A stretch of 64,000 nt of DNA from positions 80,841 to 144,840 of the forward strand of contig JAKQEQ010000181.1 in the NCBI GenBank assembly GCA_029556545.1, in the 5' to 3' direction. Shown in pieces: positions 41,845-47,086 of the stretch. Every line of letters begins with the position of its first letter. Position 1 is the first letter of the stretch. Source of the stretch: Candidatus Hydrogenedentota bacterium. Its GTDB lineage: Bacteria > Hydrogenedentota > Hydrogenedentia > Hydrogenedentales > JAGMZX01. The translations under genes and the position numbers were made by a program. The notes below the pieces were generated by a model. The model was not told the DNA's origin. It searched no databases and saw only the letters and a program-made list of their open reading frames with translations.

Positions 41845-42678
41845 ATGGCCGCGTTTTCCTCGATCGCTCCCTTTTATGACGCGCTCGCCGACAAGGCGGG
41901 GCGGCTCGAACGGGAAGGGCCGGTCTTGCGGCGCGTGCTCGACGCGGCGGCCGGGCGGCGGGTCCTGGACCTTGCCTGCGGCACGGGGCTGCATGCGCTT
42001 TTCCTCGCTGAGGCGGGGGCGGCGGTCACGGCGATCGATGTGAGCGCGGCCATGATCGATTACGCTTGCCGCGTGCGGCCACACCCGAAGATAACGTATC
42101 GCGTGCGCGATATGCGCGATGCCGAGGGCGGCCCTTACGACCTCGCGTTGTGTCTCGGAAACTCGCTATCCCTTCTGGCCGACGAAGACCACCTAAAGGC
42201 GGTATTCGCTCGATTGCGCCTGGTGCTCGCACCGGGCGGTCTGTTCCTCGCGCACGTGCTGAACTACGCCGCCGCGGTCGCGCAGGAGGCGCGACATCGC
42301 GTAGAGCGCGCTGTCGTCGAGGACATGCCGGTCGTCGCTGTGAAGAACCTGGTTCCTGACGGCGCGCACACGTTTCTGAGCCTGAGTTTCTTTTTCGAGA
42401 CGCGTGAGGAAGCGGAGGAAGACCTTCGGTCGGGCACCCTCTCCCCGAGGGAGAGGGTTGGGGTGAGGGTTGAAGACGACGGGCGGGACGCCCGTGCCCC
42501 GTGGACGGGGATTGCCGAGACGGCCGTGCTGCGTAACTGGAGCGTCGAAGACCTCACGCGCGCGGCGCGGCGATACGGTCTTGTTGCCCGCGATATTTTC
42601 GGCGCGTTTGATGGCCGTTCTTACGAACCGGAGACTTCGCCGGACCTCTTGGTATTGTTCGCCGCCGAGACGCGGTGA
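41845..42678 (+). CDS. SAM-dependent class I methyltransferase with in-frame repeat insert
   Basis: A 277-residue methyltransferase. SAM-binding motifs: VLDLACGTGLHALFLAEAGAAVTAIDVSAAMI, then YDLALCLGNSLSLL and LVLAPGGLFLAHVLN. The substrate is unknown. It starts 3 nt after the nrfA stop codon, so it is probably co-transcribed. Between SFFFETREEAEEDL and GIAETAVLRNW an insert of about 25 residues (GTLSPRERVGVRV, then EDDGRDARAPW) is encoded by two adjacent palindromic elements. It would sit in a loop between beta strands of the C-terminal sheet. No frameshift results. Confidence 0.85.
   Translation: MAAFSSIAPFYDALADKAGRLEREGPVLRRVLDAAAGRRVLDLACGTGLHALFLAEAGAAVTAIDVSAAMIDYACRVRPHPKITYRVRDMRDAEGGPYDLALCLGNSLSLLADEDHLKAVFARLRLVLAPGGLFLAHVLNYAAAVAQEARHRVERAVVEDMPVVAVKNLVPDGAHTFLSLSFFFETREEAEEDLRSGTLSPRERVGVRVEDDGRDARAPWTGIAETAVLRNWSVEDLTRAARRYGLVARDIFGAFDGRSYEPETSPDLLVLFAAETR
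42436..42495. repeat. Family C and family A palindromes inserted side by side in the methyltransferase gene
   Basis: Family C (CCCTCTCCCCGAGGGAGAGG with a GGTGAGGG tail, 42436-42470) is followed by a family A core (ACGGGCGGGACGCCCGT, 42479-42495). Both are read through in frame. Confidence 0.88.
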
Positions 42679-42689
42679 ACCACGTCGCT

Positions 42690-43901
42690 CTACGCGATCG
42701 CTCTTTCATAGGCGGCCACCGTTTCTTGGGCCGCTCTTTCCCAGGAGAACAGCGCGGCGCGGGCGAGTCCTTTCTCGCGAAGCGTGTCGCGCAGCACGGC
42801 ATCCGCCGCGATTTGGCGCATGGCGTCGGCGAGGGCACCGACGTCGTCCGGCGTGACTGTGATCGCCGCGTCACCGACTATCTCCGGCAGACTCGACGTG
42901 CTCGAAGTGATCACGGGCGCGCCGCACGCCATCGCTTCGAGGGGCGGCCACCCGAACCCTTCGAAAAGACTCGGCCAGACGAAGGCCGTGGCGGTGCTCA
43001 ACAGCGCGGGCAGGTGTTCGTCCGCGACGTAGCCGGGAAGACGGACGCGCTCGCGGTGCGGCGACCGCGCCGCGGCGTCGCTCACCGGTCCCGTTTTCCA
43101 GCCTTCGCGCCCGGCGATGACGAGGTCGCAGTCGGTGTCCTTGGCGATGGCGGACCAAGCCTCGATGATGCGCGGCACGTTCTTGCGCGGTTCGAGGGTG
43201 CCGACGTAGAGGAAGAATCGTTCGGGAAGCCCGTAGGTCGTCCGCGCGATGGCGCGGGCCTCTTCCGATGCGGGTCGGAACACCCGCGACAGCCCGTTAT
43301 GCACCACGTCGATGCGGTCCGCGGGTAATCCCAGCCACTGCTGTAGTTCATCCGCAGTATGCTGGGACACGGCGATCACGCGCCGGGCGCGCCGCGCGGC
43401 ATACGGCGCCGCCGCCCGGTAGTACCAGGCGCGGCTTACGGAAAACCACTCGGGATGGTGCAGGAAGCTCAGGTCGTGCATGGTAAGCACGGCGTTGCGC
43501 GGCATGGGCAGCGCGCCGACGTTCGCGGTGAAGTGCACCAGGTCCGCGCGGTAACGACGCGCCAGACGCGGCAGGGTCACGTGCATGGCGTAGACCTTGA
43601 GAAACCGGGGACTGGCACAAGCGGGTCTTCGAGACGTGCCTGTCCCCGATCCCCAGGAGGAGACCTTCGATCGGTCGGGTGGCTCGGTCAGGAGACCGGC
43701 CGCAACAAGGGTGTTGGGGACAGGCACGTCTCCCCCGCGAAGCGCGGGGTCGCTTGTGCCAGTCCCCGGTGCAGTGCCCGGTCCGACGACATGCAGTTCC
43801 AAATCCGCATCGAGCGCGGCGAGCGCGGGGATCAGTTCCTCGACGTAGCGGCCCGTGCCGCTGCGATTGCCCGCCTGGAGTGCATCGATGACTACGCGCA
43901 T
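42690..43901 (-). CDS. Group-4 (GT-B) glycosyltransferase with in-frame inverted-repeat insert
   Basis: A 403-residue GT4 enzyme: MRVVIDALQAGNRSGTGRYVEELIPAL at the N-terminus; VLTMHDLSFLHHPEWFS; VIAVSQHTADEL; and donor-binding blocks FFLYVGTLEPRKNVPRIIEAW, RVRLPGYVADEHLPALLSTATAFVWPSLFEGFGWPPLEAMACGAPVITS. It probably adds mannose or a related sugar to a surface glycan. Between ADLELHVVG and VTLPRLARRYRADLVHF lies an insert of about 55-60 residues (GTAPGTGTSDPALRGG ... SGTGTSRRPACASPRFLK) encoded by a nested inverted repeat (43604-43770). ATG 43901 overlaps the upstream glycosyltransferase by 10 nt. Confidence 0.88.
   Translation of the reverse strand: MRVVIDALQAGNRSGTGRYVEELIPALAALDADLELHVVGPGTAPGTGTSDPALRGGDVPVPNTLVAAGLLTEPPDRSKVSSWGSGTGTSRRPACASPRFLKVYAMHVTLPRLARRYRADLVHFTANVGALPMPRNAVLTMHDLSFLHHPEWFSVSRAWYYRAAAPYAARRARRVIAVSQHTADELQQWLGLPADRIDVVHNGLSRVFRPASEEARAIARTTYGLPERFFLYVGTLEPRKNVPRIIEAWSAIAKDTDCDLVIAGREGWKTGPVSDAAARSPHRERVRLPGYVADEHLPALLSTATAFVWPSLFEGFGWPPLEAMACGAPVITSSTSSLPEIVGDAAITVTPDDVGALADAMRQIAADAVLRDTLREKGLARAALFSWERAAQETVAAYERAIA
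43604..43770. repeat. Nested inverted-repeat element inside a glycosyltransferase gene
   Basis: The outer arms ACCGGGGACTGGCACAAGCG (43604-43623) and its exact complement (43751-43770) are 20 bp each. The inner arms GAGACGTGCCTGTCCCC (43631-43647) and its complement (43716-43732) are 17 bp each. The core includes GGAGACCTTCGATCGG and CAGGAGACCGGCC, also found at 62769-62855. Confidence 0.92.
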
Positions 43902-45019
43902 GAGGCGACTCTCCGATAGACTTCGAGGGTCCTCCGCGCCGTTTCCCGCCATGAGAACCGTTTCGCCTGTTCGCGGCCGAGCGCCCGCATACGGTCCCGC
44001 AACGCCGCGTCGCCGAGTACTTCGCTTATGGTCGCCGCGATAGATTCCGGCGACTCCGGGTCCGCGTAGCGGGCCGCATCGCCGCCCGCCTCGGGCAAGG
44101 CCGCGCGCCGGGTCGTGATCACGGGGCAGCCGCAAGCCATCGCCTCGATCACCGGCAGCCCGAACCCTTCATGAAACGACGGCAGCACGAAGGCGTCCGC
44201 GGCGGCATAGAACGCGGGCAGCGCGGCGTGGGACGGGACGTAGCCCAGCCACGTGACGCGGTCGGCGATGCCCAGCCGCCCAGCAATTGCGGGAACCGGC
44301 TCCGGTTGCCATCCGGCGCGACCGAGGAGCACGAGGCGATGCGGAAGATCGTTGCGCACGCGGGCAAAGGCTTCGAGGAGTCCTGTAACGTTCTTGCGCG
44401 GTTCGATGGCGCCGACGAAAAGGACGAACGGGCCGGACACGCCGAATTCCTCGCGCACTCGGCGCGCGGCCTCCTCGCGCGGCGGCGCGGCGAACGCCTC
44501 GTCCACCGCGCCATAGGTCACGGTGACTTTCGCTTCGGGAACGCCCAGGAGTTCCACGATGTCCCGCTTGCTCGCTTCCGAGCAGGTCAGAACGGCGTCG
44601 GCTTCGCGGGCGAATCGTGGCACGTGCCGCGCGAAGGGCCCCACAATCTTCGGACTGCACCACTGGGGCGCGCGCAGAAACGCCAAGTCGTAGATCGTGA
44701 GCACGCGCCGCGCGCGCCGCGTCGGCGGAAGGAAATAGTTCGTGGCGTGGAATACATCGACCCCGCCAAGCACGGTGTCCACGCGCGGCAACCCCGCCAC
44801 GTTCCAGAGTTGATACAACACCCGCGTCGGCACGGGCAACCGCCGCACCGGACACGCCGCCACGTCGGCGACCGCGCGGAGGGCGCGCAAGCCGGTCGCC
44901 AGACCCGCTAAACGGTCTTCTCCGAGCATCGGCAACAGTGCGCGCAGGAGATAGGCCGTGAAGTGGCCCACGCCCGTTCGATCGCCCGTAAGCGGCGTCA
45001 AGTCCATGCCCACGCGCAT
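43892..45019 (-). CDS. Group-4 (GT-B) glycosyltransferase
   Basis: A 375-residue GT4 enzyme paralogous to its downstream neighbour. MRVGMDLTPLTGDRTGVGHFTAYLLRAL, VFHATNYFLPP, VLTIYDLAFLRAPQW, AVLTCSEASKRDIVE, PFVLFVGAIEPRKNVTGLLEAFA and VTWLGYVPSHAALPAFYAAADAFVLPSFHEGFGLPVIEAMACGCPVITT give the full donor and acceptor domains. It lacks the insert present in the neighbour, which helps define that insert. The two overlap by 10 nt and were probably formed by duplication. AGGGAACC precedes ATG 45019. The likely role is exopolysaccharide or O-antigen assembly. Confidence 0.9.
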   Translation of the reverse strand: MRVGMDLTPLTGDRTGVGHFTAYLLRALLPMLGEDRLAGLATGLRALRAVADVAACPVRRLPVPTRVLYQLWNVAGLPRVDTVLGGVDVFHATNYFLPPTRRARRVLTIYDLAFLRAPQWCSPKIVGPFARHVPRFAREADAVLTCSEASKRDIVELLGVPEAKVTVTYGAVDEAFAAPPREEAARRVREEFGVSGPFVLFVGAIEPRKNVTGLLEAFARVRNDLPHRLVLLGRAGWQPEPVPAIAGRLGIADRVTWLGYVPSHAALPAFYAAADAFVLPSFHEGFGLPVIEAMACGCPVITTRRAALPEAGGDAARYADPESPESIAATISEVLGDAALRDRMRALGREQAKRFSWRETARRTLEVYRRVASCA

Positions 45020-46365: not shown

Positions 46366-46374
46366 ACAGGACGT

Positions 46375-46397
46375 GGCATGGGCGTCCCGCCCGCGTG
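46375..46397. repeat. Family A-like palindrome between hrcA and grpE
   Basis: GGCATGGGCGTCCCGCCCGCGTG, a variant of the family A element, starts 9 nt after the hrcA stop codon in the spacer before grpE. Confidence 0.8.
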
Positions 46398-46429
46398 AGA
46401 GACATGGTCATGGTGCGCGATTGGAAGTC

Positions 46430-47086
46430 ATGACAACGAAGAAGACAGAAAAGACGGAACTCGAGAGGAAGTTGGAGGCGGAACTCGCGGCGCGCGAGCA
46501 GCAGCGGCGGGAGGAGCCCTCACCCGAACCCTCACCCGAGCCCTCTCCCTCGGGGAGAGGGAGTGAGGCGCCGTCCGTCGAGGAATTGCTCGATACGGCG
46601 GTCGCGGAACGGGATACCTGGAAGGACCAATGTCTCCGTGCGCGCGCCGACCTTGACAACTATCGCAAGCGCACGGCGCGCGAGATGGAGCGGGTGCGCA
46701 AGACGGCGTCGGAAGACCTGGTCCGCGATCTGTTGCCGGTGATCGACAACCTCGAGCGCGCGCTGGCGCATGCGCCGGACGCGACGGACGGTTTCGTGCA
46801 GGGCGTACAGATGGTACACAAGCAACTGTGCGAGGCGCTGGCGTCGCGAGGCGTGGAGCCGATTCCGTCCCACGGTGAAGCCTTCGATCCGCATGTGCAC
46901 GAGGCGCTGGCGCAACAGCCGTCGGACGAGTTTCCAGCGGACACGGTGATGGAGGAATGGCAGCGCGGCTATCGCATGGGCGAATTGCTGCTGCGCCCGT
47001 CGCGCGTGGTGGTCAGCAGCGGGCCGGCGCGGGACGCGGCGGATGCGACGGCCGAAGCCACGGAAGAACAGCAGAGTGAAACCTAA
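46430..47086 (+). CDS. grpE: Nucleotide exchange factor GrpE
   Basis: A 218-residue cochaperone that releases ADP from DnaK. The helical stalk (VAERDTWKDQCLRARADLDNYRKRTAREMERVRKTASEDLVRDLLPVIDNLERAL) and the beta-wing end (PIPSHGEAFDPHVHEALAQQPSDEFPADTVMEEWQRGYRMGELLLRPSRVVVS) are intact. In the disordered N-terminal part, PSPEPSPEPSPSGRGS is encoded by a family C palindrome. The start is uncertain: ATG 46430 is used because earlier in-frame codons fall in the repeat. It lies between hrcA and dnaK in the CIRCE operon. Confidence 0.95.
   Translation: MTTKKTEKTELERKLEAELAAREQQRREEPSPEPSPEPSPSGRGSEAPSVEELLDTAVAERDTWKDQCLRARADLDNYRKRTAREMERVRKTASEDLVRDLLPVIDNLERALAHAPDATDGFVQGVQMVHKQLCEALASRGVEPIPSHGEAFDPHVHEALAQQPSDEFPADTVMEEWQRGYRMGELLLRPSRVVVSSGPARDAADATAEATEEQQSET
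46517..46567. repeat. Family C palindrome within grpE
   Basis: CCCTCACCCGAA and CCCTCACCCGAG precede the palindrome CCCTCTCCCTCGGGGAGAGG. It is the reverse-oriented relative of the copy in the methyltransferase gene (42436) with one extra CCCTCACCCGA unit. Confidence 0.88.

Follow-up and report, generated by a model that had tools for sequence, protein, structure and literature searches.

The systems closest to the locus analysed here are the TIRYTs, the REPs and the RPEs. In TIRYTs (TIRtrons), Y1 transposase genes are flanked by inverted repeats, some of which share the motif GGGGWSAS (PMC3733652). The intragenic REPs of O. terrae and others are palindromes, often dimers, that lie in frame and add 20-30 or more residues to the encoded proteins (PMC3733652). 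As for RPEs, the available portion of the review PMC10969869 ties no transposase to them. In the literature on Hydrogenedentes repeats, the matching titles and abstract openings mention no dispersed palindromes.

The window, by which we mean the whole 64-kb stretch of DNA analysed, comes from a metagenome-assembled genome (MAG) of Candidatus Hydrogenedentota (6.1 Mb, 195 contigs). An earlier note on this DNA had described a block of nested inverted repeats translated within a GT4 gene, and the frame indeed proved intact: the block (43604-43770, approximately residues 44-100 of the product) lies in a minus-strand ORF of 403 codons (42690-43901; protein P0001, 403 aa) with matches to GT4-type glycosyltransferase domains. 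Among named sequences, this protein is matched best by those of Candidatus Hydrogenedentota MAGs, and GT4 homologues were present in all 60 genomes searched. The GT4 paralogue immediately upstream (43892-45019, minus strand, 375 aa) lacks the insert, as had been pointed out, and was used as a control.

The arms were likewise as first described. The outer pair (43604-43623 and 43751-43770, 20 nt) is 100% complementary, and the inner pair (43631-43647 and 43716-43732) is perfect over 17 bp and complementary at 88% when extended to 24 nt. Four occurrences of the core 12-mers were counted in the window, every one inside the block; none of 100 dinucleotide shuffles of the window reached that number. 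Judged from the copies elsewhere in the genome, a unit properly consists of an outer arm and the inner arm next to it, and the block is made up of two separate imperfect palindromes, inverted to each other, that enclose an unrelated repeat. Unit A (43607-43647, minus strand, 41-bp type) reads GGGGACAGGCACGTCTCGAAGACCCGCTTGTGCCAGTCCCC on that strand, has the ends GGGGACTGGCAC..GTGCCTGTCCCC, and is bordered at its A-side end by an unpaired GATC tag (43648-43651, minus strand). Unit B (43716-43767, plus strand, 52-bp type), with the ends GGGGACAGGCAC..GTGCCAGTCCCC, is inverted relative to unit A and contains an extra inner hairpin, CCCCGCGAAGCGCGGGG. Between them lies the second dispersed repeat, GGAGACC..GGTCAGGAGACCGGCCRCAACA (about 43656-43710, plus strand), which is unrelated to the palindromes and has its own copies elsewhere in the genome. 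Within a unit the outer arms are paired throughout but for one mismatch at the centre, A.A (or T.T), and this mismatch lends the unit its polarity. The block looks nested because two palindromes of the same family sit in inverted orientation.

Unit A and the middle repeat recur together on contig C87 as a 107-bp block that is 93% identical; only these two such mosaics were seen. At another locus (L144, G000:C134:195089-199000) the middle repeat forms a head-to-tail tandem with a period of ~51 bp, and a further repeat, GGAAATCGGTGGCTGTCCCCTATTTTGC, seen in L030, is close to these tandem copies.

The genome search for the arms that the earlier note had proposed returned many other copies. We found 46 complete exact units in the genome itself, where a reversed-pattern control gave none, and BLAST of the block gave 64 matches. 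The units fall mainly into types of 41, 49 and 52 bp that vary in their inner parts, and mostly occur alone, scattered over ~50 places. The A-side end carries GGGGACAG, which fits the published TIRYT motif GGGGWSAS. On the A strand, 41 of the 46 units genome-wide have a T at -2, and in 19 the GGGGAC is directly preceded by GATC; the opposite flank is hardly conserved, making the GATC-like tag one-sided. A GT[AG]G head was absent from the four bases before all 46 units. At L107 (G000:C25:39854-39894) a near-perfect direct repeat of ~59 bp brackets the unit, an arrangement that resembles duplication of a stretch of target DNA, the unit marking the junction.

Exact units were present in just 3 of 59 relatives' genomes (two in the congener G001, one each in G056 and G059), and the family has therefore expanded in the lineage of the window. 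The majority of units are extragenic, as scored by codon usage trained in this analysis and with a coding fraction of 88% assumed in the test for intragenic depletion; such a bias is as expected if selection usually removes intragenic copies.

Five genes in the genome encode Y1 transposases (PF01797, Y1_Tnp), all above the Pfam cut-off. One of these, the C101 transposase (ORF of 234 aa), is immediately flanked by one unit on each side, with two further units downstream, one of them close and the other 1.3 kb away; among the other four, only the C36 gene has a unit within 1 kb. An HVH motif is visible in the C101 sequence, and the protein scored 71.8 bits (E = 5e-20) against the NCBIfam model for REP-associated tyrosine transposases, below the model's cut-off of 80. 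Of 68 genomes from the phylum, 50 contain homologues. At 30 homologous loci, the density of GGGAC[AT]GNC repeats is 3.8 per kb up to 300 bp from the transposase ORF and 0.29 per kb beyond that distance, a 13-fold difference, and at 18 of these loci the repeats flank the transposase on both sides; the repeat variant near the transposase differs species by species. Given this association, the units are most likely spread by the genome's own RAYT/TIRYT-type (IS200-like) Y1 transposase.

We compared the GT4 locus of the window with 19 loci from relatives. Related GT4 proteins might have shared the insert, a possibility the earlier note had raised against its own reading, but it was absent from all 19, whose proteins are mostly 360-376 aa long. 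The expected gain of some 55-60 residues was correct for the inserted DNA (167 bp, ~56 codons) and too large for the protein, which is 32 residues longer than the orthologue in G001, because ~80 bp of variable host linker in that orthologue has no counterpart in the window's gene. DNA was therefore replaced and not merely added. Host sequence was likewise replaced in an alpha/beta hydrolase gene and in a Gfo/Idh-type gene, the latter having lost a conserved MKDFTPPP-like stretch. In G001 (L183, G001:C94), the orthologue of a radical SAM gene has a different palindrome, GCACGGGCGTCCCGCCCGTGC, in the linker that holds a unit in the window's genome, which suggests that this linker tolerates repeats.

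In-frame read-through was observed for 10 units in 8 genes: those for the GT4 protein (two units), the alpha/beta hydrolase (two units), an Ig-like surface protein, a molybdopterin/Fe-S oxidoreductase, a glycoside-hydrolase-like protein, the Gfo/Idh protein, the radical SAM protein and a probable PAP2 phosphatase, the last being the weakest of the eight by coding score. Except for GT4, these names are tentative and come from our reading of the sequences. The peptides encoded by the units (GTGTS.., GLAQAS.., GQARLED.., GDRHVS..) come from several frames. We considered a single conserved peptide or frame of the kind known from RPEs and rejected it; since the units are read in several frames, there is no conserved encoded peptide. 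All six frames are open in 43 of the 46 units, compared with 21% of random segments of the window.

Several further repeats within genes were seen. In the alpha/beta hydrolase gene (L119, G000:C87:67958-68059) the two units are in tandem, each followed by GACTTACCC, and an MMPL-like transporter gene contains a diverged mosaic. In the window, a methyltransferase ORF (41845-42678) reads in frame through another two palindromes, CTCTCCCCGAGGGAGAG and ACGGGCGGGACGCCCGTG, at 42437-42515, and the palindrome CTCTCCCTCGGGGAGAG with a short repeat encoding SPEPSPEPSP lies at 46500-46560 inside grpE (46373-47086).

An AlphaFold model of the GT4 protein, built with an alignment of 16 sequences, had a mean pLDDT of 83, and the only values under 50 were those of the inserted stretch, residues 43-97; this drop may partly reflect the lack of homologues and is expected for any segment that is an orphan in the alignment. 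The ~56 encoded residues probably form a disordered loop without a function of its own.

The earlier note had likened the block to a miniature inverted-repeat element, and its mobile-element-like, bounded character held up. Were the block one genuine MITE, bounded by nested inverted termini, moved by a DDE transposase and duplicating its target site on insertion, the arms, the length and the inverted symmetry would agree. However, the dispersed units are local palindromes, mostly solitary, the middle repeat is an independent one that is found alone elsewhere, and the target-site duplications that were to be looked for are not in excess over the 46 units (6 bp or more at 1 unit, compared with 2.19 in shuffled pairings). 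We therefore consider one nested MITE very unlikely, the structure being two local palindromes around another repeat. Slimmer still is the chance of an assembly artefact in which repeats were misjoined within the gene. A dispersed repeat in a metagenome-assembled genome of 195 contigs invites that suspicion, but the two halves of the GT4 protein find their matches in the same single orthologues without a change of frame, and in-frame read-through is also seen at seven other genes.

It was also proposed that the mRNA would form a long hairpin, and a strong one is predicted (MFE -122.8 kcal/mol, z = -10.9). A functional RNA element, in which this hairpin causes ribosome pausing, terminates transcription or is excised, would account for so stable a fold. 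Any pair of inverted palindromes is expected to give a hairpin, however, and the strength of the predicted fold follows from the inversion and is no demonstration of function. The same repeats are mostly extragenic and occur in unrelated genes on either strand, the sampled relatives do without the insert, and an Rfam search of the region matched no family. The reading frame is open with the insert retained, and removal at the RNA level is therefore not needed. A role as an RNA element thus appears improbable to us.

We consider it highly probable, instead, that the block is a BIME-like mosaic of small non-autonomous palindromes of the REP/TIR class, likely mobilised by a Y1 (HUH) transposase and tolerated in a linker of the GT4 protein. 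A RAYT/TIRYT-type Y1 (HUH) transposase that is itself flanked by the same repeats would spread the units, and two inverted units around an unrelated repeat would have entered the variable linker of the N-terminal domain, between the strand at residues 35-39 and the next helix, replacing ~80 bp of linker. Replacement of host DNA is not a clean transposition footprint, and a further step, for example repair or later deletion, is needed. Survival of the GT4 gene would be explained by the near lack of stop codons in any frame of the units, by a net change in length that is divisible by three and by a linker tolerant of changes in length and sequence. Selection would then keep the GT4 frame, with selfish mobile DNA tolerated in the loop, presumably translated and neutral.

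Extended by GGGGATC, the 41-bp unit measures 48 bp, or 16 codons, and might be a translation-tolerant form shaped for life inside genes. Of the 41-bp type, 7 of 11 units lie inside genes, compared with 3 of the 35 others (Fisher p = 0.0006, for a comparison picked after the data had been seen), and we regard the idea as improbable. If it were true, a translation-tolerant palindrome would let a Y1 transposase rewrite protein loops.

The locus offers a compact case for how selfish repeats lengthen proteins, with families with and without the insert and a likely transposase at hand. It also advises caution, in that orthologues from MAGs can differ by repeat-encoded loops that are probably functionless.

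Compared with TIRYTs, the likenesses are a PF01797 transposase, that of C101, flanked on both sides by inverted repeats, a repeat end (GGGGACAG) that agrees with GGGGWSAS, and dispersed copies, here 46 units, some TIRYT families being dispersed, self-complementary and moderately abundant (PMC3733652). Unlike the TIRYTs of Di Nocera et al. (2013, PMC3733652), the repeats here belong to Candidatus Hydrogenedentota, carry a GATC-like tag and include at least 10 units in frame within genes. With the REPs, BIMEs and RAYTs (Nunvar et al., 2010, PMC2817692) and the REPINs (Bertels and Rainey, 2011, PMC3116915) they share short, imperfect, dispersed palindromes tagged at one end, inverted and in mosaics, that adjoin an IS200/IS605-like transposase gene. 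They differ from REPs and REPINs in lacking the GT[AG]G head, in being mostly single and not REPIN doublets, and in numbering ~50 copies and not hundreds; in contrast to GTAG REP/RAYT systems, the tag is GATC or a variant and the C101 transposase scores below the NCBIfam cut-off for REP transposases. The intragenic REPs of O. terrae belong to another repeat family and phylum, whereas the GT4 block includes a third, unrelated repeat and replaces host linker. RPEs, as far as the available portion of the review describes them (PMC10969869), are likewise in-frame palindromic selfish DNA in unrelated protein genes (here 10 units in 8 genes), but they encode a conserved peptide, whereas several frames are in use among the units here. 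REPs and RPEs that undergo translation have been described before (PMC3733652, PMC10969869), and what is new here is another example and not a new kind of element, one that extends translated, transposase-linked palindromes to Candidatus Hydrogenedentota.
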